Of a stretch of DNA of 57,381 bases, positions 5,343 through 55,321 are shown one piece after another. The position numbers and the translations under genes are program-made. The notes beneath the pieces are model-generated. The model was given only the letters and a program-made list of their open reading frames with translations, was not told the origin of the DNA and did no database searches. Source of the DNA: a virus; IMG/VR virus record IMGVR_UViG_3300042896_000260, positions 1 through 57,381 of that record; one strand, written 5' to 3'. Each line of letters starts with the position of its first letter. The first letter of the stretch is position 1.

Positions 5343-6455
5343 ATGGACAAATTAGACGTGGTGGTGGATCTGCAATACGGTAGCACCGGCAAGGGATTGA
5401 TCGTCGGCTATCTGGCCGAAAATGGCCCGTACGACACCGTGGTCACAGCGTGGGCACCAAATGCGGGGCACACCTACATCGACAAGAAGGGGCGCAAATT
5501 CGTGCACACGCATCTGGCCAACGGCATCGTAGGCCCCGCAGTGCGCAAGGTCATGCTCGGCCCGGGCTCGCTGATCAACCCGCTGAGCCTGATGGCTGAG
5601 ATCTGGGAATGCGAGGACGTGGTCAAGAGCAAGGGCATCCGCATCATGATCCACCCGCACGCGGCGGTCGTGACTCAGCGGCATATCGACGAGGAAGCTG
5701 GCCCGATGACCAAGATCGGCTCGACCAAGAAGGGTGTGGGTGCTGCCATGATTCAGCGCATCCGGCGCGACCCGGACGACACGAATATCGCCGCGAACTG
5801 CGCAGCGCTGAAGGAATGGGTAGTGACCGTGGACGAGTACCGCCGGGAATTGAAGGATTCCGAGTACGTCCTGGTGGAGGGTGCCCAGGGCTACGGGCTG
5901 TCGATGTATCATGGGTTCTACCCGTACACCACCTCGCGTGACGTGTCGCTCTGGCAGATCCTCGCAGACTCCGGCATTCAGGCAGCGGACGTGCTCGACA
6001 AGTACAAGATGACCAAGGTCCGCGCCATCGGCACCTGCCGCACCTTCCCGATCCGCGTGGCGAACCGATTCGATGAGAATGGCACCCAGGTGGGCTACTC
6101 CGGCCCGTGCTACGACGACCAGTGCGAGATCACATTCGAGGACATTGGACAAAAGACCGAACTCACGACGGTGACCAAGCTGCCCCGCCGGATCTTCACG
6201 TTCAGCGGCAAGCAGATCAAGGAAGCGATCGACCACAACGCCGTGTACGAGGTGTTCCTGAACTTCGTGAATTACGTGCGCACCGAGACCGAACTCATCG
6301 ACATCGTGCAGCGCATCGAGCGCAAGGACACCCAGGTGCGTTGGATCGGCACCGGCCCCGCTCACAAGGACGTGCACGAGATTAATGGGGATCGCGCCCA
6401 GCGTATGCAAAAGATCGTATCTGTCTGGAAGGAATGTAAAAATGCTGCTGCCTGA
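5343..6455 (+). CDS. purZ: PurZ: adenylosuccinate-synthetase-like enzyme making succino-2-aminodeoxyadenylate
   Basis: A 370-residue PurA homologue starting one base after the polymerase stop. PurZ joins aspartate to dGMP to give the precursor of 2-aminodeoxyadenylate; host PurB and kinases would finish dZTP. The N-terminal loop is QYGSTGKG, where S14 replaces the catalytic Asp of PurA (GDEGKGK); this replacement is the accepted marker that separates phage PurZ from cellular PurA. APNAGHT retains the NAGHT block with the catalytic His, and YHGFYPYTTSRD matches the HGTYPYVTSS block. It is shorter than bacterial PurA (about 430 residues), as phage PurZ proteins are. It overlaps mazZ by 14 bases. 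Confidence 0.93.
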   Translation: MDKLDVVVDLQYGSTGKGLIVGYLAENGPYDTVVTAWAPNAGHTYIDKKGRKFVHTHLANGIVGPAVRKVMLGPGSLINPLSLMAEIWECEDVVKSKGIRIMIHPHAAVVTQRHIDEEAGPMTKIGSTKKGVGAAMIQRIRRDPDDTNIAANCAALKEWVVTVDEYRRELKDSEYVLVEGAQGYGLSMYHGFYPYTTSRDVSLWQILADSGIQAADVLDKYKMTKVRAIGTCRTFPIRVANRFDENGTQVGYSGPCYDDQCEITFEDIGQKTELTTVTKLPRRIFTFSGKQIKEAIDHNAVYEVFLNFVNYVRTETELIDIVQRIERKDTQVRWIGTGPAHKDVHEINGDRAQRMQKIVSVWKECKNAAA

Positions 6456-7139: not shown

Positions 7140-7702
7140 TGGCACTCACGATCGCCGAGCAGATGCGGGCAAGCCACGTCACGCGGTGGCACATTGTGGC
7201 CACCTCGCGCAAGCAGTCGCTCGCTGAACACTTGTTCAACGTGTGCATTCTGTCGGTCGATTTGGCCGGTCGTGTCTACTGGCCCGGGATTCTGCACGAT
7301 TCGGAAAAGATGAAGCTCATGGATTACGCGCTCAGGCACGACCTGATCGAGGTCCGCACCGGCGACATCCCCACACCGTTCAAGAAGGTGCTCAAGGCGC
7401 TGATCGGCGCTGACGTCATGCACAGGGCCGAATCCGAGGTCGACAACGACCAATCAGGATTCTGCCGTTTGTACGCGGGCACCGACATCGAGCGCATCGT
7501 GAAGATGGCCGACATGATCGACGCGATCCAGTTCTGCACCGACACCGGTGTGGGGCTGCACGCAAAAGGCGTAATCGACGGTCTGCGCCAGGATTTCGAC
7601 GCGATGGTGAACCAGTACGAGAAAGAGTGCCCGCATTTGCGCATCCGCGAGGGGTGCCGGTCGATCTGTCGTGATCTCGGTGTCTGGGGAGGGATGCTAT
7701 GA
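7139..7702 (+). CDS. datZ: DatZ: HD-domain dATP triphosphohydrolase
   Basis: A 187-residue HD-phosphohydrolase of the YfbR/DatZ size class. The metal and substrate signatures are visible: HVTRWHIV (13-20), the helix LAEH with H31, HD at 67-68 followed by IEVRTGDIPTP, and KMADMIDAIQF with a later Asp. DatZ removes dATP (and dADP/dAMP) so that the polymerase is left with dZTP, which excludes adenine from the phage DNA. Its neighbours purZ and mazZ define the substrate; on sequence alone a general 5'-deoxynucleotidase remains possible. Confidence 0.88.
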   Translation: MALTIAEQMRASHVTRWHIVATSRKQSLAEHLFNVCILSVDLAGRVYWPGILHDSEKMKLMDYALRHDLIEVRTGDIPTPFKKVLKALIGADVMHRAESEVDNDQSGFCRLYAGTDIERIVKMADMIDAIQFCTDTGVGLHAKGVIDGLRQDFDAMVNQYEKECPHLRIREGCRSICRDLGVWGGML

Positions 7703-7923
7703 AGTGTGTACAATGCGGCGGTAGTACCAAGGTGATGACCACCTACAACAACGAGAATGGCAGCATCCGAAGGCGTCGCCGGTGCCTGGAGTGTGACTAT
7801 CGGTTCACCACCCGGGAGAAAGCCGACCCTCCCGAGGAACAACTGTATCCGTACGGGATTCGGGTTGACGGGTTACCCCACCCGTGTTATAATCGGGATT
7901 CCGAGGAACTTATAGAGGACTGA
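7699..7923 (+). CDS. NrdR-like zinc-ribbon protein without ATP-cone
   Basis: Seventy-four residues, starting within the last codons of datZ (ATGA). C3-x2-C6 and C29-x2-C32 form a zinc ribbon, and the stretch RRRRRCLECDYRFTTRE closely matches the DNA-binding zinc ribbon of NrdR, the repressor of ribonucleotide reductase genes. The ATP-cone that senses nucleotides in NrdR (about 100 residues) is missing, so this is a free-standing ribbon. It may be a DNA-binding regulator; whether it acts on host nrd genes or on the phage's own palindromic operators is unknown. The gene holds the next promoter near its 3' end. Confidence 0.75.
   Translation: MKCVQCGGSTKVMTTYNNENGSIRRRRRCLECDYRFTTREKADPPEEQLYPYGIRVDGLPHPCYNRDSEELIED
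7865..7893 (+). promoter_or_regulatory. Early promoter with operator-like spacer (family member 2)
   Basis: TTGACG - 17 bp - TATAAT, with CCACCCGTGT in the spacer abutting the -10 box. It lies inside the end of the zinc-ribbon gene, and the leader ATAGAGGAC (7912-7920) follows just before the TTG start of the deacetylase-like gene at 7925. Confidence 0.75.
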
Positions 7924-7924
7924 C

Positions 7925-8755
7925 TTGACCCCGATTTTCTACACCCCCGCCCAGACCGCTGACCACGACTTCATCTCGGTCAGCAAGATCCCCGAGTTCG
8001 TGCGACAGGCCGACCGCAAGACCAACAGCGATATCGAGCCGCTGACCCCGACCGATCTGGCCCGGGCGCACGACCCCGATTTCGTGGACGACGTGCTTAC
8101 GTGCCGAGTCGCGAACGGATTCGGAAACAGGAATCCGGCGCTCACCGACACAACCCGCTACACGACCGGGAACATCGTCCGGGCGACCGAGTGGGTGATT
8201 CAGGAGGGCATGCTCGTGGCGTGCTCGGCCACACAGGGATTCCACCACGCACACTACGCTAGTTGCTACGGGTACTGCACGTTCAACGGCCTGATCCTGG
8301 CCGCGCGGCGTGCTGTCGATCTCCTGGGCTTGAGGGTGCTGATCATCGACGGCGACGGCCATGAGGGTGACGGCACCGACGACATCATCGACAAGACGGG
8401 TCTCTACCACGACGTAATCAACATCGACCGTCGACAACTGGCGCATGGTGTTCGCCCGACTTGGAACGCCCGGATGTGGATGCATTACTTCACCCATTTG
8501 ATCAATCTGCACGAGCCGGGTATAATACTATACCAAGCGGGGGCCGATGCCTGGGAAGAAGATCCGTACGGCGCGGGGTACCTGAGCAAAGAGGGGATGC
8601 GTGATCGCGATAGCGGGTTGTTCCAAGCCGCTGCAAATGCTGTGATCCCCGTGGTGTGGAACCTAGCCGGTGGGTACACCGATCCGATGCAGGGCACGAT
8701 CGACATCCATCTGCAAACGCTCCAAGTGAGCGACGAGGTGTACTATGGCCGGTAA
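7925..8755 (+). CDS. Histone-deacetylase-fold amidohydrolase (acetylpolyamine amidohydrolase-like)
   Basis: A 276-residue zinc hydrolase of the arginase/deacetylase fold, starting at TTG 7925 five bases after the ATAGAGGAC leader. All catalytic positions can be read: the His pair in GFHHAH (H107, H108), metal ligands in DGDGHEGDGT (D142, D144, H146), the third ligand in QAGADAWEEDPYG (D208) and the transition-state Tyr in NLAGGYTD (Y251). Bacterial relatives deacetylate acetylated polyamines, acetoin-pathway substrates or proteins. The substrate here is unknown; freeing polyamines for DNA packing or removing acetyl marks from host proteins are guesses. It is shorter than typical members (about 310-370 residues). 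Such a gene in a phage is uncommon. Confidence 0.85.
   Translation: MTPIFYTPAQTADHDFISVSKIPEFVRQADRKTNSDIEPLTPTDLARAHDPDFVDDVLTCRVANGFGNRNPALTDTTRYTTGNIVRATEWVIQEGMLVACSATQGFHHAHYASCYGYCTFNGLILAARRAVDLLGLRVLIIDGDGHEGDGTDDIIDKTGLYHDVINIDRRQLAHGVRPTWNARMWMHYFTHLINLHEPGIILYQAGADAWEEDPYGAGYLSKEGMRDRDSGLFQAAANAVIPVVWNLAGGYTDPMQGTIDIHLQTLQVSDEVYYGR
8498..8526 (+). promoter_or_regulatory. Possible intragenic promoter
   Basis: TTGATC - 17 bp - TATAAT lies within the deacetylase-like gene, about 220 bases before the next start at 8745. The -10 box overlaps an imperfect palindrome (GGTATAATACTATACC). The CACC(C/G)GTG core is absent, so it is not a member of the early promoter family and could be chance. 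Confidence 0.4.
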
Positions 8756-9929: not shown

Positions 9930-10185
9930 CATCACCACAATCGTGGACGAGCGGGGCTCGCAGTACGGCGATTTCGCCGAGCAGGGGCAGATCGCTCAGG
10001 CGCTGAAGGACTACATGCGCGAGCACATCGGGTGGGACCGGCTGAGTGCCCATCAGCGCGAGGCGCTCGACATGATCATGCACAAGGTCTCCCGCATTCT
10101 GAACGGGAACCCGAACCACAAAGACTCCTGGGTCGACATCGAGGGTTACGCCCATATCGTGGCGATCAGGATACCGGGGGATTGA
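9892..10185 (+). CDS. DUF6378-like protein, 97 aa
   Basis: ATG 9892 overlaps the previous gene by 38 bases; a GTG at 9910 is an alternative start. The pattern DERGSQYGDFAEQGQIAQALK ... QREALDMIMHKVSRILNGNP-NHKDSWVDIEGYAHIV matches a widespread small phage family (DUF6378) with a conserved Glu/Asp/His set on helices. MazG-like nucleotide hydrolysis has been proposed for similar all-alpha folds, but its function is not established. It is followed by a promoter of the shared family. Confidence 0.75.
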   Translation: MQKGDSQVHSKVDITTIVDERGSQYGDFAEQGQIAQALKDYMREHIGWDRLSAHQREALDMIMHKVSRILNGNPNHKDSWVDIEGYAHIVAIRIPGD

Positions 10186-10211
10186 CAAGGGTATAGCACC
10201 GGTGTTATACT
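10182..10211 (+). promoter_or_regulatory. Early promoter with near-perfect operator palindrome (family member 3)
   Basis: TTGACA - 18 bp - TATACT. The spacer and -10 box contain GTATAGCACCGGTGTTATAC, a 20-bp palindrome with one mismatched pair. RNA polymerase and a dimeric regulator bound here would compete. The leader ATAGAGGACA (10241-10250) follows. Confidence 0.8.
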
Positions 10212-10256
10212 TCAGGTACTGGATCTTCCCAGTGAAACACATAGAGGACACGCCAA

Positions 10257-12526: not shown

Positions 12527-12530
12527 ATAA

Positions 12531-12560
12531 TTGACAATACTATAGCACCGGTGTTATACT
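12531..12560 (+). promoter_or_regulatory. Early promoter with operator palindrome (family member 5)
   Basis: TTGACA - 18 bp - TATACT, with TATAGCACCGGTGTTATACT and the trailing TCAGGTACTGGATC identical to the promoter at 10182; the two regions look like a duplicated cassette. The 59-base stretch to the next start ends in the leader ATAGAGGAC (12604-12612). Confidence 0.82.
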
Positions 12561-12619
12561 TCAGGTACTGGATCGCGAAACGACCAGTAATCATCAACCC
12601 GACATAGAGGACAGACATC

Positions 12620-15376: not shown

Positions 15377-15672
15377 CACAGTGGTACGACATGTTCCTGC
15401 GGGGTGAGTATCAGGCGACGGTGTTCATGCCGTCCCCGGAGAAACTGGCGGAGTTCACCCGCCGATACAGCGAGTCGTACGCGGAGGAGACCGGGGAGCG
15501 AGAGCCATACCCCGAGGAGATCCGGTACGTGCAGCGCTCGTCGTTCAGCGGAGAGTACCTCACGACGCTCGACAGTCAGGGCGGGTATATCAGTAGCTAC
15601 CCCCCGGTCGAGAGCGTCTCCCGGGGCCACGGAGATACCTTCGCGGCGGACTCGGAAGGCGGGGAAGTATGA
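15373..15672 (+). CDS. Unknown protein, 99 aa
   Basis: ATG 15373 overlaps the previous stop (ATGA). Acidic, with many Tyr and Glu residues (RRYSESYAEETGEREPYPEE). No family recognised. Coupled to the nuclease that follows. Confidence 0.65.
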   Translation: MTQWYDMFLRGEYQATVFMPSPEKLAEFTRRYSESYAEETGEREPYPEEIRYVQRSSFSGEYLTTLDSQGGYISSYPPVESVSRGHGDTFAADSEGGEV

Positions 15673-16106
15673 GACTGCCCGAGCAGCGGCTGTGGGACTG
15701 GCTGCGCGACCGTCTGACCGGCAGGTGGTTCGCCGAGCGGGTCGAGAATCGGGTGATGGCCGGCACGCCGGACGTGTACTTCAGCCACCGCCTGGGGCGG
15801 GGGTGGATCGAACTCAAGGTGGTGAACAACTGGCCGCGCACCGAGGCAGCGAAATTCAAGATCCCGCACTGGACGCAGAACCAGAGGAACTGGATGCAAC
15901 AACACCACGCGCAGGGCGGCAAGTCGTGGCTCGTCGTGGGAATCGAGCACACCGGGGAGTTGCTGATACTGCCCGACACCCTGGCGCTGCGGGTGGTGGA
16001 CCACTGGACACAGGACGACATCCGACTGCACGCCAGGGGCGAAGGGATGCTGCAAGAGAAGAGAAAGACCGGGCCACAGGCACTGCTTGACGCGCTGCGA
16101 GGGTAG
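15669..16106 (+). CDS. PD-(D/E)XK nuclease (VRR-NUC / Holliday-junction-resolvase-like)
   Basis: One hundred and forty-five residues. The catalytic pattern is visible as GTPDVYF (D35) followed after 12 residues by WIELK (E48, K50), with a preceding Glu (E26) and a later HWTQNQRNWM helix that matches the QxxW/R motif of VRR-NUC and phage resolvase-type nucleases. It may resolve branched replication or packaging intermediates. It is the last gene of the early arc, immediately before the left mirrored array. Confidence 0.8.
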   Translation: MRLPEQRLWDWLRDRLTGRWFAERVENRVMAGTPDVYFSHRLGRGWIELKVVNNWPRTEAAKFKIPHWTQNQRNWMQQHHAQGGKSWLVVGIEHTGELLILPDTLALRVVDHWTQDDIRLHARGEGMLQEKRKTGPQALLDALRG

Positions 16107-16124
16107 TGGTTTAATCGAGTCCGA

Positions 16125-16199: not shown

Positions 16200-16553
16200 T
16201 GTTACACCGTTCCATCAAGATGTAACACAGATGTAACACGCTCTCCCAGTCGAGAGAAGGGGGTCGTGTTACATTGTTACATGCATACGCGGGGGAAGAA
16301 CTTTGGTTCGGAAACCAGAATATGGGGGGTATATGATGGAACGGGTACTACAATGTAACAACCTCACAAAAGCGAAGAAGGACGCGGGCTGTGGAAGGGT
16401 GGTCTGTTACATCTGTGTTACATCTCGATGTAACAGCATTAGGGACGACCCTAATATGACATTAGGGAGAACCCTAATATGAATGCTTCCAGACGTCCCG
16501 GACCCTTCCACCACCACATAGGCATTCACGATATTCTCTCGTGTACGTGCATG
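16200..16553 (+). repeat. Left mirrored TGTTACA array (inverted copy of 53342-53676)
   Basis: Read on the opposite strand, 53342-53676 matches this region in blocks separated by diverged spacers: TGTTACACCGTTCCA; GATGTAACACAGATGTAAC; a long block around GTTACATTGTTACATG, ACGCGGGGG, GGTTCGGAAACC and ATATGGGGGGTA; GGAACGGGTACTACAATGTA; TCTCGATGTAACAGCATTAG; TCCAGACGTCC; and CTCTCGTGTACG at the edge. Nine TGTTACA/TGTAACA sites start at 16200, 16221, 16232, 16267, 16275, 16354, 16405, 16416 and 16429; three pairs are spaced 11, 8 and 11 bp. Spacers diverge while sites stay, as expected of protein-binding arrays. Confidence 0.9.
16438..16478. repeat. Two ATTAGGG-N4-CCCTAAT palindromes
   Basis: ATTAGGGACGACCCTAAT (16438-16455) and ATTAGGGAGAACCCTAAT (16461-16478) are seven-base inverted repeats around four bases, starting 23 bp apart. 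One identical copy of the second lies in the right array (53421-53438). They look like operator sites for a dimer. Confidence 0.75.
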
Positions 16554-16559
16554 TAAGCA

Positions 16560-16575
16560 GTTAGCGGACGCTAAC
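16560..16575. repeat. GTTAGCG-GA-CGCTAAC palindrome
   Basis: A perfect inverted repeat with a two-base centre, directly outside the left array. A second copy with centre CC is at 53044-53059, inside the last structural gene. The shared stems suggest a common binding site at both junctions. Confidence 0.6.
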
Positions 16576-16653: not shown

Positions 16654-16682
16654 TTGTAGCACGGGTGGGGTTGTGTTGTAAT
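16654..16682 (+). promoter_or_regulatory. Possible late promoter with CACGGGTG copies
   Basis: TTGTAG - 17 bp - TGTAAT, with CACGGGTGTTGTA (from 16647) and CACGGGTGGGG (from 16660) nearby, which copy the core of the early promoter family. The -10 box ends eight bases before the terminase ATG and there is no Shine-Dalgarno sequence, so the mRNA would be nearly leaderless. Box quality is low. Confidence 0.35.
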
Positions 16683-16689
16683 TCGCGCC

Positions 16690-17361
16690 ATGGACCCAGG
16701 GTACGTTGAATCTAAGGTAATTGAACTGGACAAACTCGGTGCCGAGACGCTCGCCGAGTTGGAGCGCCGCGCGGGCATCTCTGTCCTGGCCCTCCTGGAC
16801 GCCATCCGGCGTGATCGGGTGCGCCATGCCGACAGCCCTGCAGCAAACGACTCCTCGTCTTTGTCGTGTAACAATCCGTCGCTCGAGGCAAGGGGCTTCC
16901 TCAAGAAAAATGAGGAGACCAAAGCTTACCGGATGCTGATTTTCCTGGCTGAATTTCGTGATGGTCCGTCCGATGCGAAATTCAGCATGCGGCACGCGTA
17001 CACGAAAGCCGGCATCATTCGGGTGACCCTGAGCGACTGGCGCAACGCGCATCCACTGTTCAATTCGATCGTGGAGTCGATCCAGGAAGAAATGGTCGAC
17101 ACGATGCGTGCCGAGGCGTACCGGCGTGCGGTGGTGGGTCACGACGAGCCTTTGGTGCACCAGGGCGTCAAGACCGGCGAAACGGTGAAGAAATTCAGCG
17201 ACGGCCTGCTGCAGTTCACGCTGATGGGCTACGACGCCAAGTTCCGTCAGAAAGAGGTCAACATGAACGTGTCGGGGCAACTCGACTCGAACATCAATAT
17301 CGAGGGTCTCCGTGATCGTCTTGCCCAACGCCTACAGCAGAAGGCAAAAGCCGAAGATTAA
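16690..17361 (+). CDS. terS: Terminase small subunit
   Basis: A 223-residue protein directly before the large terminase, with which it overlaps by 50 bases. The helical N-terminal segment, the central DNA-binding-like part (SMRHAYTKAGIIRVTLSDWR, a helix-turn-helix) and a C-terminal basic, Gln-rich tail fit small terminases, which recognise packaging sites and regulate the motor. ATG 16690 has no visible ribosome-binding site, so translation may be leaderless. It is the first gene of the late arc, next to the left array, which could include its target. Confidence 0.75.
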   Translation: MDPGYVESKVIELDKLGAETLAELERRAGISVLALLDAIRRDRVRHADSPAANDSSSLSCNNPSLEARGFLKKNEETKAYRMLIFLAEFRDGPSDAKFSMRHAYTKAGIIRVTLSDWRNAHPLFNSIVESIQEEMVDTMRAEAYRRAVVGHDEPLVHQGVKTGETVKKFSDGLLQFTLMGYDAKFRQKEVNMNVSGQLDSNINIEGLRDRLAQRLQQKAKAED

Positions 17362-31237: not shown

Positions 31238-33735
31238 TGGCAAACGTAACCATTACACAGTTACCCGCTGCCGGTCCCATAACGGGAACGGAGTCGGTGC
31301 CTATTGTTCAGAACGGGGTGACGGTACAGACGACCACGGCGGCTATTGCTGCGTCGCCCTCGCAGTTCCAGACATTCCTGACGCTGAATTCGGAAGCCAC
31401 TCTTCCGAATAGTCGTTACCTGTCTACGGGGCTCGGTCTGGGCCTCACGGATGGTGGAGCGCTATCTTACTACCGGATAACTCTCAACAGGGCCTCCGGA
31501 AGCCTCGAGAGTGCCTCCACGGGCATCATCGCGAAGGACACAGCCTCCTCCGTAGTCGCTCGGACGCTCCAGACGTCCGGGAATGGCCTCTCGGTGACCG
31601 ACGGGAATGCCGTTTCGGGTAATCCGACATTCTCGCTGACTGGTCAAGTCCTCTCCCTGGCCAATGTGACGGGTCCTGGCCTTGTCGCGTTACCGAACAA
31701 CGGCTCGGTGGTTCCTCGAATTCTCACCGGCACCACATCTGAAATCGATGTAGCCAATGGAACGGGTGCCCTGGGCAATCCGACCATTGGGATCGCCGAC
31801 GACCCAGTTCTCCCTGGTACTGGCGCGGTCACGCTGCCCAAAGGAACCAACGCCCAGAAGCCCGGCGGCGTGACCGGCATGGTTCGCTACAACACGGACT
31901 TGGCGACGTTCGAGGGCTACACCTTGAGCGGGTGGAATCAGTTCGCCCTGACTGGTGGCGTTACCCTGATCAACACCGGCACCGGCTTGACGGGTGGCCC
32001 GATCACAACCTCGGGAACGATCTCAATTGCCAACACGGGCGTGACGGCGGCGACCTATGGTTCGGCCACTGAAGTCGCGCAGATTGCTGTCAACGCACAG
32101 GGCCAAATCACCAGTGCGAGCAACGTTGTCATTTCCGCAAGCGGTATTGGTGCTGTAGCGTCCGTATCTGGTACGGTCAACGAGATCACGGCAACCGGTA
32201 CAACGAACGTCACGTTGTCCCTGCCGTCTTCGCTGACCTTCACCGGCAAGACGGTCACCAATGGCACCTTCAACTCCCCGACCCTGGTCACCCCTGCGTT
32301 GGGCACTCCTACTTCGGGAACGCTGACAAACGCTACCGGGCTGCCGATCTCCACCGGCGTTTCCGGCCTGGGGACGGGAGTTGCATCTGCCCTGGCGGTC
32401 AATGTCGGCACCGCCGGTGCATTCGTCGTCAACGGCGGGGCGCTCGGCACCCCCACTTCGGGAACGCTGACCAATGCCACGGGTTTGCCGATTTCCACTG
32501 GCGTATCCGGCCTGGGCACCGGAGTTGCCACGGCGCTCGGACTCAATGTCGGAACCGTTGGCTCTGTGGTGGTCAACGGAGGAGCCCTTGGAACGCCTTC
32601 CTCGGGGACTTTGACCAACGCCACTGGTCTACCTATCTCCACGGGCGTTAGCGGTCTGGGAGCGGGCATTGCGACCTTCCTGGCCACCCCGTCAAGCGCG
32701 AACCTCGCTGCGGCGGTCACGGACGAGACCGGTTCTGGATCTTTGGTCTTCGGCACGAGTCCCACGATTACGACGCCCGCGATCACTGGCGGCACGATCG
32801 ACAACACGATCATCGGAGGAACTACCCCTGCTGCGGGCACGTTCACTTCGGTGACGATGACCTCCGGCACGATCACCACGGCTCCGGTCAGTGGCAACGA
32901 CATCGTTAACAAGACGTATGCCGATTCGATCGCCTCGGGCATCAACTTCCACCAGTCCTGCGTCTACGCAACGACAACCGCACTGGCCGCGAACACCTAC
33001 AACAACGGCACTGGAGGCGTCGGCGCGACGCTGACCGGGAACGTCAACGGTGCTCTGGTCATTGATGGCCACACCTTCGTCTCCCCGACTGATGTAGGCA
33101 AGCGGGTTCTGATCAAGAACGAAGGGAATGCTGCGTACAACGGCGTCTATACCGTCACGCAGACGGGTAGCGCCGGTGCTGTGTACATCCTGACCCGTGC
33201 GACCGACTTTGATACCGCGGGTTCTGGTGTTGACCAGATCGATCAGGGCGACTTCTTCCTGATCACCTCGGGTACGGCGAATGCCAATACTTCGTGGGTG
33301 CAGCAGACTCCGCTGCCAGTCACGGTTGGTACGACGGGAATCGTCTTCTCGCAGTTCGGTGCGCCGCTGACCTACTCAGCCGGGACTGGGCTGAATGAGT
33401 CCCCTGCCTACACCTTCAACATCGCCAACACTGGGGTGTCTTCCGGGTCTTATGGCAGCGCATCAAGCGTGCCGACGATCTCGGTCAACGCTCAGGGTCA
33501 GATCACCTCTGCGGTCAGCACCTCGATTGCGATTGCTGCATCTCAGGTAACTTCTGGGACTTTGGCGATCGCGCAGGGCGGTACGAACACCAACGCCACG
33601 CCAACTGCGGGAGGCGCGGTATACGGAACCGGCACGGCGTATGCGTTGACCGCTGCGGGAACTGCAGGTCAGGTATTAACATCAACCGGAGCAAGCGCCC
33701 CCGTATGGTCGGGCATCTCTGGCGGCACTTTCTGA
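31237..33735 (+). CDS. Tail fibre/head fibre protein with 48-residue repeats, 832 aa
   Basis: The first 45 residues (NVTITQLPAAGPITGTESVP) form the attachment module; the middle has three copies of a 48-residue repeat (GALGTPTSGTLTNATGLPIS-TGVSGLG...) at about residues 355-480; the next 200 residues resemble FNIANTG and VDQGDFF-type fibre modules; the end is SGISGGTF. Ser/Thr/Gly-rich and beta-helical, as host-recognising fibres are. Confidence 0.85.
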   Translation: MANVTITQLPAAGPITGTESVPIVQNGVTVQTTTAAIAASPSQFQTFLTLNSEATLPNSRYLSTGLGLGLTDGGALSYYRITLNRASGSLESASTGIIAKDTASSVVARTLQTSGNGLSVTDGNAVSGNPTFSLTGQVLSLANVTGPGLVALPNNGSVVPRILTGTTSEIDVANGTGALGNPTIGIADDPVLPGTGAVTLPKGTNAQKPGGVTGMVRYNTDLATFEGYTLSGWNQFALTGGVTLINTGTGLTGGPITTSGTISIANTGVTAATYGSATEVAQIAVNAQGQITSASNVVISASGIGAVASVSGTVNEITATGTTNVTLSLPSSLTFTGKTVTNGTFNSPTLVTPALGTPTSGTLTNATGLPISTGVSGLGTGVASALAVNVGTAGAFVVNGGALGTPTSGTLTNATGLPISTGVSGLGTGVATALGLNVGTVGSVVVNGGALGTPSSGTLTNATGLPISTGVSGLGAGIATFLATPSSANLAAAVTDETGSGSLVFGTSPTITTPAITGGTIDNTIIGGTTPAAGTFTSVTMTSGTITTAPVSGNDIVNKTYADSIASGINFHQSCVYATTTALAANTYNNGTGGVGATLTGNVNGALVIDGHTFVSPTDVGKRVLIKNEGNAAYNGVYTVTQTGSAGAVYILTRATDFDTAGSGVDQIDQGDFFLITSGTANANTSWVQQTPLPVTVGTTGIVFSQFGAPLTYSAGTGLNESPAYTFNIANTGVSSGSYGSASSVPTISVNAQGQITSAVSTSIAIAASQVTSGTLAIAQGGTNTNATPTAGGAVYGTGTAYALTAAGTAGQVLTSTGASAPVWSGISGGTF
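32302..32680 (+). repeat. Three tandem 144-bp coding repeats
   Basis: The units start at 32302, 32446 and 32590 and each encodes about 48 residues (GTPTSGTLTNATGLPISTG and the following linker); the third unit is partial. Nucleotide identity has drifted between the copies, so they are old and kept by protein selection. Confidence 0.8.
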
Positions 33736-49631: not shown

Positions 49632-51245
49632 ATGGCAGAATCCACTGAAGACAGCGGCTACAGCCCGCTCCTGGCTAGGATGCTGAAGGTGGACCCGAAT
49701 CAAATCGGGTCTATCTCCTTGTCCGCTCTCGGTAGACAGGCCATGGGCGCGGATAGCGAGGCGTATCAGAAGGCAAAGGCTGAGGTAGACTCTGCGCGTA
49801 CTGCGATGGTGAGCGCGTTGCAGGACCGCAAGAGTCGAATTGATCCGTCGATGTTGGCTCTGGCTCAGGGATTCCTCGCCCCCACCCGCACCGGCTCATT
49901 TGGTGAATCGCTAGGTTCTGCGGCGGGTGCCTACTCTAAGGCGCAACAGGCCGAGGAGGATCGTGCCGCCAGGATCGCGCAGATGCGCTATGAACTGGCT
50001 CGCGCGGCGATGGGCGAAGAGACCCAGGCGGCGCAACTAGGCCTGTCGGTGGCCTCGAAGCTCTCACCTAAGCTCACCGCATACCAACAGCAGGTGCAGT
50101 CGGAGGGCATCGACCCCCGCTCGCCCGAGGGCATCAACCGGGTCAAGGAACTTCTCGCGGGTGACAAGGCCACACCCGAGATGAAGATGTTCGCGGCTCA
50201 GACCGGGACTTCGCTGACTGACCCGGCCTTCGCGGCCAAATTCCGTCAGTACGAAGAGACCAAGGGTCTCCGCGATATCGCCGCGCGTCTGAATCTAAAT
50301 CTGACCGACCCCAACCAACTCGCTCGGGCACAGCAGGAAGCACAGCGCGAGGCCTTCCGGCGCGAAAATCCCGAGGTGGCCAAGAAACTGCAGCAGTTCG
50401 GTGGCGACCCGCTCAACCCGAAGGATCTGGCCCGCGCTCAGCAGGAAATGCAGACGGATGTGGGTCTGGAGCGCCAGAGTAAGGTCACTTCGATAGCGCA
50501 ACAGCAAGCCCAGACTATCCGAACCCGGCAGGAGATCGATGAACACATCCGACAGGGAGACGTCAACGCAATCGCCCAGACCGCGCAGGAGGCGGGGATA
50601 CCAATCGATCCCAAAGTCCAGTTCACCGGACTTAACAAGAAAGAAATCGCAACCAAGCGCACAGAGCAAGCAAGAGAAGCGGACAAGTACATCAACGAGA
50701 AGATCGCTCCGCATATCTCTGGTATCGACGATGATCTCAACGACCTTCGTCGCGCCCTGGCATTGAACGCCGAGATCCGCACCGGCTACACCTACGGTGT
50801 GGGCATGGGTGTTGGCGAAGCCGCTAAACTGCTGTCCGGCGACCGCGCCAAGATCAGTGAGTTCGACTCTATCGCTGCCCGTGCCGCCAAGCAGAATCGG
50901 ATCCCCGGTGACTCCAACGTGTCGAATGCTGACATGGCGTGGATGCGACTGGGCACGTTCAGTTCGGACAAGGAGCCCATCACCAACGAGAACATCATCA
51001 AGTTCCAGTTGGCGCAGCGGCAGCGTGACCGGGACTTCCACGACTACATCCAGAAGTACGCCGCGATCAACGGTGCGGTGACTCCCCACGCCCAGGCTCA
51101 GTGGCGCAGGTACCTGGAAGCGAACCCAATCACGACGCGTGACGCGAGCGGTAAGATCGTGCTGAATCCGAATCGCATGACGTATCAGCAGTATTTCAGT
51201 ATGCCTCGCGTCCGTGTTGACGCCCAAGGCCGGGAGACTCAGTGA
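49632..51245 (+). CDS. DNA-ejection-type virion protein, 537 aa
   Basis: Starts five bases after the previous gene. Almost all helical and charged with Gln-rich coiled coils (DLARAQQEMQTDVGLERQSK, VTSIAQQQAQTIRTRQEIDE). The composition and place between two similar genes suggest an internal protein ejected with the genome. No enzymatic motif is visible. Confidence 0.68.
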   Translation: MAESTEDSGYSPLLARMLKVDPNQIGSISLSALGRQAMGADSEAYQKAKAEVDSARTAMVSALQDRKSRIDPSMLALAQGFLAPTRTGSFGESLGSAAGAYSKAQQAEEDRAARIAQMRYELARAAMGEETQAAQLGLSVASKLSPKLTAYQQQVQSEGIDPRSPEGINRVKELLAGDKATPEMKMFAAQTGTSLTDPAFAAKFRQYEETKGLRDIAARLNLNLTDPNQLARAQQEAQREAFRRENPEVAKKLQQFGGDPLNPKDLARAQQEMQTDVGLERQSKVTSIAQQQAQTIRTRQEIDEHIRQGDVNAIAQTAQEAGIPIDPKVQFTGLNKKEIATKRTEQAREADKYINEKIAPHISGIDDDLNDLRRALALNAEIRTGYTYGVGMGVGEAAKLLSGDRAKISEFDSIAARAAKQNRIPGDSNVSNADMAWMRLGTFSSDKEPITNENIIKFQLAQRQRDRDFHDYIQKYAAINGAVTPHAQAQWRRYLEANPITTRDASGKIVLNPNRMTYQQYFSMPRVRVDAQGRETQ

Positions 51246-53278
51246 TGCCAATCGAACGCGTGATCGGAGGGGTGATCTATGAATTCCCTGATGGTACTTC
51301 TGAAGCCACAATCCGGAAGTTCGAGGCCCAAAAGACTGGCGGCGCTGCTGCTCCCTCCGCAGCCCCGGCTCAACCCTCAGCGTCCCGCCCTAGACCCTTC
51401 TCCACCGGTGCCGGTAGCCAATTCCTGCAAGGCCTGACGTTCGGCTTCTCGGACGAGGCAATCGCGGGTCTGCGTTCGGCGATGGGTCAGGGTAAGTACG
51501 AAGATCTGGTCAAGGCTGAGCGCGAGGCATTGCGCAAATACGGTGAGCAACACCCGGTGATCGGGACCACCGCCGAGATCGTGGGCGGCATAGCCCCCGC
51601 AGTGGTGACAGGCGGTGCGTCATTAATCCCAGGACTCGGTCGGACTCTGGCTTCGACGGTCGGTCCTCGAGCCGCACAATTGCTTCTGGGTACTCAACCC
51701 ACCATTGGTCGCATGGCCGCAACTGGTGCGGGGGCCGGTGCCGCCACCGCCGTGGGTACATCCGAGAAGTCCCTGATGGAACAGCCCGCCGAGGCTGCGA
51801 AAGGGGCCGTGGCCGGTGCCGCCGTGACAGGCACACTCGGTGTGGCCGGCAAATACATCATGGCTCCGGCGTTCCGCAGGGTCAAGCAAGCCATGGGGTT
51901 CGGCGATGCGAACAAAGCCGCTGACATCGCGATAGCCCGGGCACTGGAGAAGGACGGCCTGACACCGGATCAAGCCGCCGCAAAGATCGCTGCCGTTCAA
52001 CGTGGCGAGATGACACTGGCCGACCTGGGCGAGAACACCGCAGCACTCCTGCGCCACGCGTCTGCCGCGCCGGGTGAGGCACGTCGTGTAACGAAGGCCG
52101 AACTCGCAGGGCGTGAAATGGAGCGGGTGCCCCGCGTGACGGAAGACCTGCGCACGTTGATGTCCGGATCGAAGGATTTCTACACCGATATTCAGGACCT
52201 GATCAAGAAGCGCTCGAAGGACGCAAACGCCCTGTACGACGCGGCGTACTCCGCAGCGCCTTCTTTCTCCGCGCAGACCGCACCAGACATCGCCCGACTG
52301 CGTAACCTGCCGAGCTTCCAAGAGGCCATGAAGAAAGGCGCGAAACGCATGGCCGATCTGGACCTCGACATCGCCGACCCGAAGAACACGTTGCGGGCGC
52401 TGCACGAGACCAAGATCGCACTCGACGACATGATCGACACCGCAGTGCGGGCCGGCGAGGGCAATCAGGCACGCACGCTGATCAGCATGAAGAATCGACT
52501 GCTCAAAGACATGGAGAGCGCGTCGCCCGAGTACAAGATCGCCCGCCAGACGTACGCCGGTGATATGGAGATGCAGACCGCGATGCAGGAAGGGCAGCGC
52601 GTGTACCAGTTGCCCGAACTCGAGATGCGCAAGCTCATCGACCGGTTCAAGGATTCCCCGAGCGAGTACGACGCTTTCCGCGCCGGTATCGCCCAGTCGA
52701 TGCTCGACCGACTGCGTGCCGGTGGCCCGTCGGCAGATCCGGTCAAAACGGTGTTCCCGCGCGGGGTCGAGGATAAACTGCGCCGCGCCTTCCGCGACGA
52801 CGAAGCCTTTGACGCATTCAAGACCCGACTGGCTGAAGAGCAGACGATGCTCGGCACCGAGAAGGCCGCATTCCGTCGCACGCCTTTGGATACCGACCTG
52901 GATCAGGGCGCGGGCGGGGTCGGTGCCGCCACGAGCCTGCTCGCCGGTCGTCCGATGACCGCCGGGATGGAGGCGTTGCGTGCCCGGTTCCCGAATGTGG
53001 TAGGCATGCCCCCGGCGATCGCCACCCCCACTGCTCAGAAACTGTTAGCGCCCGCTAACAAGACCGACGAGGTGTTGGGTAGCATCATGCAGTCGCTGAA
53101 ACAGCAGGAACAGGAACTGCTCGCCGCGACCGGTGCTGTGGGTGCCGGATCGGCCCTTATGGGTGGTCTCGCTGCCGCCCGACCGGTTCAGCAGCAGTAT
53201 CCGGAAGAGAGCCTGAACCAACCCGGCCTGCCGCCGATGCCCTCCGGAGCCTCTCCGTTGGGCTCTCTGAAGCCTTAA
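51245..53278 (+). CDS. Ejection-type virion protein, 677 aa, last late gene
   Basis: ATG 51245 (GTG 51242 is one codon upstream) overlaps the previous stop. The start PIERVIGGVIYEFPDGTSEA-TIRKFEAQ is the conserved lead of many podovirus internal proteins; next come Ala-rich hydrophobic helices (residues about 100-200: GGIAPAVVTGGASLIPGLGR) able to insert in membranes, then a long helical region (GDMEMQTAMQEGQRVYQLPE) to the end. A GTTAGCG palindrome lies in its last 250 bases and a 16-bp AT palindrome begins at the end of its stop. Confidence 0.75.
   Translation: MPIERVIGGVIYEFPDGTSEATIRKFEAQKTGGAAAPSAAPAQPSASRPRPFSTGAGSQFLQGLTFGFSDEAIAGLRSAMGQGKYEDLVKAEREALRKYGEQHPVIGTTAEIVGGIAPAVVTGGASLIPGLGRTLASTVGPRAAQLLLGTQPTIGRMAATGAGAGAATAVGTSEKSLMEQPAEAAKGAVAGAAVTGTLGVAGKYIMAPAFRRVKQAMGFGDANKAADIAIARALEKDGLTPDQAAAKIAAVQRGEMTLADLGENTAALLRHASAAPGEARRVTKAELAGREMERVPRVTEDLRTLMSGSKDFYTDIQDLIKKRSKDANALYDAAYSAAPSFSAQTAPDIARLRNLPSFQEAMKKGAKRMADLDLDIADPKNTLRALHETKIALDDMIDTAVRAGEGNQARTLISMKNRLLKDMESASPEYKIARQTYAGDMEMQTAMQEGQRVYQLPELEMRKLIDRFKDSPSEYDAFRAGIAQSMLDRLRAGGPSADPVKTVFPRGVEDKLRRAFRDDEAFDAFKTRLAEEQTMLGTEKAAFRRTPLDTDLDQGAGGVGAATSLLAGRPMTAGMEALRARFPNVVGMPPAIATPTAQKLLAPANKTDEVLGSIMQSLKQQEQELLAATGAVGAGSALMGGLAAARPVQQQYPEESLNQPGLPPMPSGASPLGSLKP
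53044..53059. repeat. GTTAGCG-CC-CGCTAAC palindrome within a coding sequence
   Basis: The same stem as the palindrome at 16560-16575, with centre CC instead of GA. It is placed about 280 bases outside the right array and is translated as part of the last late gene. Confidence 0.55.
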
Positions 53279-53293
53279 GCTATATATATAGCT
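53278..53293. repeat. AGCTATATATATAGCT perfect 16-bp palindrome
   Basis: The palindrome starts on the last base of the stop codon of the final late gene. The sequence is fully symmetrical and AT-rich, and the stretch that follows includes CTCCGGGG and CCTCGGAG arms (53311-53337) that can pair. It could be a melting element, a regulator site or part of a terminator. Confidence 0.6.
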
Positions 53294-53341
53294 CCCACCA
53301 CTCCGGGGCTCTTCTCGGGCCTCGGAGGGCTTCTCTGCATT

Positions 53342-53676
53342 CATGCGCGTACACGAGAGTAATCCTGAATAGCCCTGAGTGGGGTCAGGAGGGTGGTGGA
53401 CGTCTGGAGAATACCCCGATATTAGGGAGAACCCTAATGCTGTTACATCGAGATGGAACGGAGATGTAACAGACCATAGGCTCAGAGGCCGCGTCGGACG
53501 CGGGCTCTGACAGTGTGTTACATTGTAGTACCCGTTCCACCTACTACCCCCCATATTCCGGTTTCCGAACCAGAACTCGACCCCCGCGTACGCATGTAAC
53601 AATGTAACAGAGGGCCTGTTCTTCGATTGGGAGAGGGTGTTACATCTGTGTTACATCACGGTGGAACGGTGTAACA
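53342..53676 (-). repeat. Right mirrored TGTTACA array (inverted copy of 16200-16553)
   Basis: TGTTACA/TGTAACA sites start at 53441, 53465, 53516, 53595, 53603, 53638, 53649 and 53670. The order of shared blocks is the reverse complement of the left array, from CATGCGCGTACACGAGAG at 53342 (left edge at 16536-16553) to TGGAACGGTGTAACA at 53662-53676 (left edge at 16200). One site present in the left array is here changed to GATGGAAC. Length 335 against 354 bp. Confidence 0.9.
53421..53438. repeat. ATTAGGG-N4-CCCTAAT palindrome in the right array
   Basis: ATTAGGGAGAACCCTAAT, identical to the copy at 16461-16478. It lies just outside the first TGTTACA site in both arrays. Confidence 0.75.
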
Positions 53677-53686
53677 ATGTCGGGGG

Positions 53687-53715
53687 TTGAAGCCCCGAGC
53701 GAGGCGTGGTATGAT
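53687..53715 (+). promoter_or_regulatory. Promoter of the primase operon
   Basis: TTGAAG - 17 bp - TATGAT, directly behind the last TGTTACA site of the right array. A small hairpin (GGGGTTGAAGCCCC) overlaps the -35 box. The leader AATAGAGGGATC precedes the primase ATG. A protein bound to the array could control it. Confidence 0.6.
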
Positions 53716-53767
53716 TACATCACCACCGGGGAGCCGGTGTCAATCCATAGCCTAGAATAGAGGGATC

Positions 53768-55321
53768 ATGACGAGTTTAGTACAGGACTTTGCGGGCCTG
53801 TTCGCCGGTAATCTGAGGTCTTACGGCCAGTGGGACCCCGCGACAGGGAACATGACGACAGTGAAAGCCGAGATACCTCTCTCGGCCTACGAGGATCATA
53901 TAGAGGGCAGGATGGGCCTGGGGGTGGTGCCGATTACCGACGGCGGCACCTGCGTGTTCGGGGCGATCGACATCGACAAGCACGACACGCCTGAGGACAT
54001 CGACTTCAAGTCGCTTGCGGACAAGATCAAAGAGTACCGACTGCCCCTGGTGATGTGCCGCACCAAGCGCGGCGGGGCGCACCTGTACGTGTTCGGATCG
54101 GAGTTCCTCCCGGCCAAGCAGGTGCAGCGCATCCTGGCTTCGTGGCGCGACATGCTCAAGATCCCGTACAAGACCGAGATCTTCCCGAAGCAGGACTCGC
54201 TCGTGACAGCGGGAGGCGAGAAGGCGCTCGGTAACTGGATCAATCTGTGCTATTTTGACGTGGCCGACACCAAGCGGTACGCGTTCGACGAGAACGGCGA
54301 GCGGATGACGTTCGAGTTATTCGTGCAGTACGCCCAGTCCAAGCGGATCAGCGCGGCAGAATTGGCCGAGTTCACGCAGCGTGAGCATCTGGAGGCACCG
54401 CCCTGCGTGCAAAAGATGATCCACACTGGGGTGGAGTCTGGTGCCCGTAACGACGCCATGTACAACGTGGTGATCTACCTCAAGCGTGCGCGGCCCGAGA
54501 CGTTCTTCGACGACGCGATGGTGTTGAACAAGACGATGTTCGACAAGCCGTTACCACCGTCCGAGGCCAAGAAGGTGATCCGGTCGGCGTCCAGACGGGA
54601 TTACCTGTACAAATGCGCGGAGGAGCCCTGCAAGTCGCTGTGCGACCGTAAGGTGTGTGTCACGCGCGAGTTCGGCATCTCGATGGACGAGAAAAAGGAA
54701 CTGGACGCGCACGACTCGCTGCCGCAGTTCACCGACCTCATCGAGTACCAGTCCGACCCGCCACGGTGGGGGCTACACGTCAACGGCACACTGATCAGCA
54801 ATATCCCGACGGTGGTGCTGCGCGACCCGGCGGCGATGGGTACACTCATCTTCGAGAAGCTCAAGATCAATATTCCGAAGATCAGCCAGGACTCATGGCG
54901 CAAGCGAATCCTCGACCCTCTAGTGCCGAATCTGCGCGTGATCGAGGTGCCAAAGGAGGCGAGCGCGTCGGGCGTGATTCAGGCCAAGTTCGCCGAATTC
55001 GTGCAAAAGGCGAACCTCGACTCAGACGGCACCAACACTGAGGAGCGGAAGGCGCTGCTGCGGAATATCCCAGTGGTGCAAGTGATGAACGGCGTGCGCT
55101 GCGTGGTGTTCAGGGGCACCGCATTCTCCGAGTTCCTCAAGCGTAACAAGGCCGAGGTGATGACGGGCATGGACCTGTGGATCGCGCTGCGGCGTGACTG
55201 CGGCGCGGATCACGACAAGATGCGGATACCGGGCGGCAAGGTCATAAACGTTTGGTACGCCCCGATAACCGAGGATTATGAGGTGAGTGCTGATGAGCCC
55301 GAATTCAAGTCAGAATTCTAA
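53768..55321 (+). CDS. Archaeo-eukaryotic-type primase (TOTE/PrimPol-like)
   Basis: A 517-residue protein. The AEP catalytic core is seen as VFGAIDIDKHD (D68, D70), followed by CRTKRGGAHLYVF (H105, with the K-R-G-G-x-H pattern) and a third acidic region (KTEIFPKQ); NDAMYNVVIYLKRA near residue 230 resembles the PriCT-type linker, and CAEEPCKSLCDRKVC (about 283-297) is a zinc-binding Cys cluster. It would make the primers for replication and works beside the helicase gene that overlaps its end. Start ATG 53768 after AATAGAGGGATC. Confidence 0.85.
   Translation: MTSLVQDFAGLFAGNLRSYGQWDPATGNMTTVKAEIPLSAYEDHIEGRMGLGVVPITDGGTCVFGAIDIDKHDTPEDIDFKSLADKIKEYRLPLVMCRTKRGGAHLYVFGSEFLPAKQVQRILASWRDMLKIPYKTEIFPKQDSLVTAGGEKALGNWINLCYFDVADTKRYAFDENGERMTFELFVQYAQSKRISAAELAEFTQREHLEAPPCVQKMIHTGVESGARNDAMYNVVIYLKRARPETFFDDAMVLNKTMFDKPLPPSEAKKVIRSASRRDYLYKCAEEPCKSLCDRKVCVTREFGISMDEKKELDAHDSLPQFTDLIEYQSDPPRWGLHVNGTLISNIPTVVLRDPAAMGTLIFEKLKINIPKISQDSWRKRILDPLVPNLRVIEVPKEASASGVIQAKFAEFVQKANLDSDGTNTEERKALLRNIPVVQVMNGVRCVVFRGTAFSEFLKRNKAEVMTGMDLWIALRRDCGADHDKMRIPGGKVINVWYAPITEDYEVSADEPEFKSEF

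Follow-up and report, generated by a model that had tools for sequence, protein, structure and literature searches.

The window, by which we mean the whole stretch of DNA analysed here (57,381 bases), corresponds to one IMG/VR virus record. Because its two ends overlap over 149 bases with 98.7% identity (self blastn), the map is regarded as circular, with a length of approximately 57.2 kb. All assigned genes are located on the plus strand. The early block runs from the primase gene (start at 53768) across the window ends to a small nuclease-like gene (15669..16106, +) with a weak resolvase/VRR-nuclease-like family match. The late block runs from the gene of the small terminase subunit (TerS; 16690..17361, +; phrog_4044, E 4e-20), which is followed by the TerL gene, to a last gene at 51242..53278 (+). 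The genes of the window include those for a PurZ-type adenylosuccinate synthetase, a dATP/dGTP pyrophosphohydrolase and an HD phosphohydrolase, and the replication genes comprise a PolA-family polymerase, an SSB, and SNF2-like and UvrD-like helicases. This gene set indicates that the window is probably a 2-aminoadenine (Z-DNA) phage, in which adenine is replaced in the DNA. Proteins resembling Pam3 gp32-34 are encoded as well, and the replication module is common to the window and Acinetobacter phage SH-Ab 15497. The only such replication proteins found in the scanned early genes were helicases of the SNF2 and UvrD types and the AEP primase; a gp38-type initiator with a DnaB-type helicase and loader was not found there, nor was a DnaB-type helicase among the scanned genes as a whole, and Rfam and tRNA scans were empty.

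Both junctions between the early and the late block hold an array of short sites: array A is located in the gap before the terminase genes and array B in the gap before the primase gene, 163 bp past the end of the last late gene. An earlier note on this DNA had placed inverted copies of one array at these two junctions and expected a match between 16.2 and 53.5 kb. Self blastn indeed aligns 16200-16457 with 53676-53419 on the minus strand (80.3% identity over 259 bp, E 1.5e-60), a weaker second inverted piece extends the match (16488-16560 against 53408-53335), and the junction genes are those that had been named, namely TerS and TerL after A and an AEP-type primase after B. The heptamer TGTTACA occurs 19 times in the whole window, against 2.9 occurrences expected, and this number was reached in 0 of 100 shuffles. 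Array A (16200..16435, +) contains nine copies and array B (53441..53676, -) eight, as the earlier note had counted. As a description of the sites TGTTACA was borne out but proved too narrow, since degenerate CGTTCCA sites occupy the same grid (two in A, three in B), resulting in 11 sites per array in the window and 12 in most relatives.

In array A, the sites are found at 16200>, 16208> (degenerate), 16221<, 16232<, 16267>, 16275>, 16337< (degenerate), 16354<, 16405>, 16416> and 16429<, where > and < give the direction of each site. The general grid per array reads > 8 > 13 < 11-12 < (~35) > 8 > (~63) < 8 < (~60) > 11-12 > 13 < 8 <, and array B shares this spacing in an orientation inverted with respect to A. 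A single array is itself quasi-palindromic, because its outer blocks are mirror images of each other; measured against shuffles, this symmetry stands out clearly in A and less so in B. Between A and B, 75 of the 77 site positions are identical versus 138 of the 181 spacer positions (Fisher p 9e-6), so that the earlier statement of conserved sites between diverging spacers, and hence of selection on the sites, is upheld. The array centre is not strikingly AT-rich in the window, and an AT-rich centre is present in some relatives (L007, L012). GC and AT skew were followed round the circle, the former being a check proposed in the earlier note, and neither switches at A or B.

Each array is entered from the early side by a sigma70-like promoter. 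The promoter directed into A (TTGACG-17-TTTAAT, 16087..16115, +; p 0.01 against shuffles) has a similar counterpart in most relatives, where the site is somewhat weaker than the one directed into B. The latter (TTGACA-18-TGTAAT, 53714..53743, -) runs leftward, against the gene direction, and in most relatives its counterpart is TTGACA-17-TATAAT or TAGAAT (p 0.01 against shuffles). Because the unit of promoter and array faces away from the early block on either side, the A and B copies look inverted. A GC hairpin, CAGAGGCCGCGTCGGACGCGGGCTCTG, is located among the site blocks of array B (53483..53509; z -4.7 for the surrounding 101 nt), array A has the shorter form GGACGCGGG, and a similar element was recognized by eye in relatives. 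The arrays are also accompanied by ATTAGGG...CCCTAAT palindromes, two lineage-specific copies next to A (16438..16478) and one next to B (53421..53438). The single mirrored palindrome reported in the earlier note thus applies to B, A having two, and these palindromes were dropped as core elements because they are confined to the nearest kin of the window.

Two further elements were observed on the late side. Beyond both arrays (16488-16560 and 53335-53408) a common element, GTCTGGA ... CTCTCGTGTACGYGCAT, is present in the window and also in relatives. Past the last late gene (53279-53330), a perfect GCTATATATATAGC palindrome is found together with a terminator-like hairpin, and many relatives, including SH-Ab 15497, have a GCTATATA-type palindrome at the same place.

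Megablast and blastn of the window or of array A against GenBank phages gave no matches, and relatives were reached only via their proteins: a search with the primase yielded 46 loci, one with TerL 21 records with both junctions, and one with TerS 80 loci. The earlier note had named the loss of the arrays at conserved junctions as an observation that would count against it. Both arrays are present in 21 of the 21 relatives in which both junctions are readable, array B is found in 41 of 41 close primase loci, where it adjoins the primase promoter, and array A in 66 of the 67 TerS loci with enough upstream sequence. The sole TerS locus without an array (L189) is not a good counterexample, because its upstream sequence is unrelated.

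The motif differs between lineages: TGTTACA is used by the window and a few others, TGTTCCA by most, and TGTATCC by one clade, in which the sites are spaced by 9 bp versus 8 bp elsewhere. Although the motif class varies, A and B share the same class within a genome in 21 of 21 relatives. The class of both arrays therefore switches together across lineages, which points to one trans-acting factor. Among distant phages in culture, SH-Ab 15497 possesses two inverted arrays (70.8% identity over 233 bp), located before the primase and before TerS, of which the literature searched gave no description. Klebsiella phage K21lambda1, Salmonella phage PMBT28 and Providencia phage Kokobel2 have two arrays each in direct orientation, so that the presence of two arrays is the conserved feature and their inversion is not. 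Accordingly, the plastid-like layout proposed in the earlier note is correct for the window insofar as inverted repeats divide the circle (blastn), but it is not supported as the functional point. Many distant phages with an AEP primase display other 7-bp motifs at 8-9 bp spacing ahead of the primase gene; no clear tandem motif was found at this place in the distant relatives L255, L266, L270, L271, L272, L274, L275 and L276.

The primase gene that follows array B (53768..55321, +; AEP-TOTE) encodes the proposed array-binding initiator. Its AEP catalytic domain (PF22548, E 3.6e-11; Foldseek match to CAPP Prim-Pol, E 1e-11; profile match, E 6e-11) is followed by a PriCT_1 domain at residues 221-279 (PF08708, 23.2 bits with a cut-off of 21.1) and a predicted C-terminal winged helix, and there is no helicase domain. 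The winged helix (residues ~430-500, codons at 55055..55267, +) was predicted with confidence by AlphaFold2 (helices 450-459 and 467-478, strands 481-486 and 492-499, pLDDT ~90), and the second strand of the predicted wing begins at residue 492 (codon 55241-55243, +). The best structural match of this C-terminal domain (VIA-align) is TcpK with Z 7.6; all winged-helix matches have a Z below 8, the usual background, and indicate a common arrangement only. Foldseek of the winged helix returned nothing below E 0.001, and a profile search against PDB sequences gave no match. The structure of ColE2 Rep is absent from the structure match lists, which decides nothing.

To find proteins that track the site motif, 17 phage proteins were scanned column by column (3263 columns, of which 1944 variable). 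Only one of the 3263 columns, V492 of the primase, sets the four TTA (TGTTACA-rich) representatives apart without exception from the 23 remaining lineages, and residue 492, which was noticed first in the same data and ranked afterwards, takes first place among the 1944 variable columns for motif composition. No column of the 16 other proteins fits all TTA representatives; position 226 of PurZ fits three of the four. When the motif and residue 492 are mapped on a tree built from SNF2 and the primase minus its C-terminus, three changes are required for either, and they fall at the same points. The covariation thus consists of three independent changes, and since there are only three change pairs, significance in a sign test (p 0.25) is out of reach. 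The TGTATCC phages have Y492 and a wing that is one residue longer. The same combination of Y492, longer wing and TGTATCC arrays was found in two loci that were fetched later, outside the discovery set (L244 and L247), and that may belong to the TGTATCC clade.

Because the pair of arrays is family-wide and the site sequence changes with one primase residue, the clusters are most likely the two places at which the primase begins to copy the genome. With moderate confidence, we interpret the arrays as clusters of 7-bp half-sites for the winged helix of the phage's AEP primase and as twin replication origins, which lends support to one of the roles listed in the earlier note, that of paired origins. 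Primase-bound twin origins are proposed in view of the domain order known from ColE2 Rep, the phage's own PolA and SSB, and the lack of a DnaB-type helicase among the scanned genes. The location of one array at the primase promoter and the tandem motifs ahead of the primase gene in many distant phages also speak for this reading. Against it stand the missing skew switch at the arrays, the array centre that is not strikingly AT-rich in the window, the small number of independent motif changes, the low Z values of the winged-helix matches, and the distant relatives in which no clear tandem motif was found.

We infer primase binding to the arrays, origin activity, transcriptional opening and autoregulation, which could be connected as follows. 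The primase would be made early from the promoter next to array B, and its winged helices would bind to the tandem site pairs, spaced by 8 bp, in both arrays. RNA polymerase that sets out from the promoter aimed into each array would help to open it, whereupon the AEP domain would synthesize primers, to be extended by the phage PolA-family polymerase together with the phage SSB and helicases of the SNF2-like and UvrD-like kinds. Binding at array B may also tune the primase promoter. In its most complete form, the proposal comprises twin origins served by a single AEP initiator-primase, whose winged-helix wing would read two mirrored arrays of 12 sites. A separate promoter on the early side would lead into each array, transcription-opened forks would leave the early block both ways, and the sites and the wing would diversify together within a large family of phages that probably contain 2-aminoadenine. 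This full combination is put forward tentatively, as a possibility rather than an expectation.

The promoters beside the arrays also allow a reading in which the sites are operators only, through which a phage regulator, possibly the primase, would switch transcription between an early promoter at B and a late promoter at A without any origin role. Promoters are found at both arrays, and the positions of the arrays coincide exactly with the starts of early and late transcription. At array B, which adjoins the primase-gene promoter (TTGAAG-17-TATGAT, 53687..53715, +), this rightward promoter and the leftward one overlap. We nevertheless consider this reading rather unlikely: the promoter-like sequence ahead of the small terminase gene (TTGTAG-17-TGTAAT, 16654..16682, +; consensus match only) is separated from the closest site of A by more than 200 bp, 12 spacing-locked sites in each array is a large number for an operator, and the covarying protein is the primase, while no dedicated regulator tracks the motif among the genes tested. 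An operator role at array B is compatible with an origin role, and the two may coexist.

It is less probable still that a host protein or a phage accessory factor binds the arrays for looping, partition or segregation of the circle, with the covariation of the primase being coincidental. Two arrays ~20 kb apart could pair, the hosts of these phages differ, and small early proteins that occur in only some relatives fall outside the covariation scan; yet no protein of the ParA/ParB type turned up in the genes scanned, and the best-tracking column is residue 492 of the primase. Packaging recognition, another role listed in the earlier note, would make the arrays pac or cos sites for the small terminase subunit. 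Array A does lie 250 bp before the TerS gene, but array B is far from the terminase genes, and in a separate comparison of TerS from 50 non-redundant loci, including 10 TTA representatives, no column fits the motif partition even within two errors (adjusted R2 of 0.55 for the best TerS column versus 0.88 for primase residue 492). As no TerS column tracks the motif, we regard packaging recognition as very improbable. Finally, a plastid-like flip-flop, in which the arrays would act as recombination repeats that invert the late arc, as the earlier note had also suggested, is hardly credible: the arrays are mutually inverted and flank two arcs, but the copies are only 80% alike, the genes are all on one strand, the Klebsiella, Salmonella and Providencia relatives have direct arrays, and primase and TerL are co-directional in 17 of the 17 genomes with both markers.

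The proposed primase-read origins resemble several known systems in part. The Rep protein of ColE2 is an initiator primase that binds two iterons and unwinds the origin with its PriCT-1 and HTH domains, only Pol I and SSB being needed in vitro (PMC4980987; PMC5862659). The primase of the window shares with ColE2-P9 Rep the order of an AEP domain, PriCT-1 and a C-terminal HTH-type domain, the last of which is predicted here (PMC4980987, PMC5862659, PMC4538821), and for it, too, binding to short repeats beside the primase gene and Pol I-type extension with SSB are proposed. The differences are that a 57-kb phage with two arrays of ~12 half-sites takes the place of a single origin with two iterons, and that PolA and SSB are phage-encoded. 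Bacillus phage SPP1 likewise has two similarly organised repeat arrays per genome, oriL and oriR, one of which is located in an intergenic gap, and both are served by one origin-binding protein, gp38 (G38P) (PMC6316719, PMC3485210). However, its oriL lies inside gene 38, its repeats are direct and accompanied by an AT-rich element, and it uses a DnaB-type helicase, a loader and the host primase, whereas the proposed binder here is the primase itself.

In the primase protein alpha of phage P4, a winged-helix domain binds origin repeats (PMC4234260), but there a bacterial-type (Toprim) primase is fused to a helicase, in contrast to the AEP primase without a helicase domain described here. RepB' of RSF1010, with ssiA and ssiB, has the AEP primase fold (match 3h20), two sites and GC hairpins nearby; it recognizes single-stranded hairpins of opposite polarity within one compact origin, and the iterons are bound by a separate protein, RepC. 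TcpK, the closest structural match of the primase C-terminal domain at the level of a common winged-helix arrangement only, reads tandem 9-nt boxes through its wing at the oriT of plasmid pCW3 (PMC6137059), but it is an accessory protein of conjugation and no primase. A further parallel is formed by SH-Ab 15497 and its kin, sequenced 2-aminoadenine phages with a homologous primase module and paired arrays, although the motif of SH-Ab 15497 is GGTTGCT.

No account of where replication starts in this phage group was found in the literature, and the arrays offer precisely placed candidates for origins, both in the window and in relatives that have been cultured, SH-Ab 15497 for example. The wing residue and the site seem to change together, which would constitute a rare natural series on how the DNA specificity of an initiator changes, with two distant sites changing jointly. 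A use also suggests itself for the winged helices that are joined to AEP primases lacking a helicase and that were earlier proposed as origin recognisers.

Several other features of the window were recorded. An early protein of 276 aa (7925-8755) has a histone-deacetylase/arginase-like family match (PF00850, E 1.6e-29), which is unusual for a phage, and relatives with 49-54% identity are present in most genomes of the group. A 74-aa early protein (7699-7923) corresponds to an NrdR-type zinc ribbon (PF22811, E 5e-11) but lacks the NrdR ATP-cone, and no tracking of the site motif was observed for it. A 45-bp direct repeat (93%) is located at 10181-10225 and 12530-12574, ahead of two small early genes; these are perhaps repeated promoters, and comparable repeats are present between genes of SH-Ab 15497, K21lambda1 and Kokobel2. 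Within two long late genes, which are probably structural, tandem repeats are found at 32296-32672 and 47296-47812. In PurZ (5343-6455), many columns are common to the window and one relative (L016) and unlike those of their neighbours, and for this reason an exchange of purZ between lineages is suspected.
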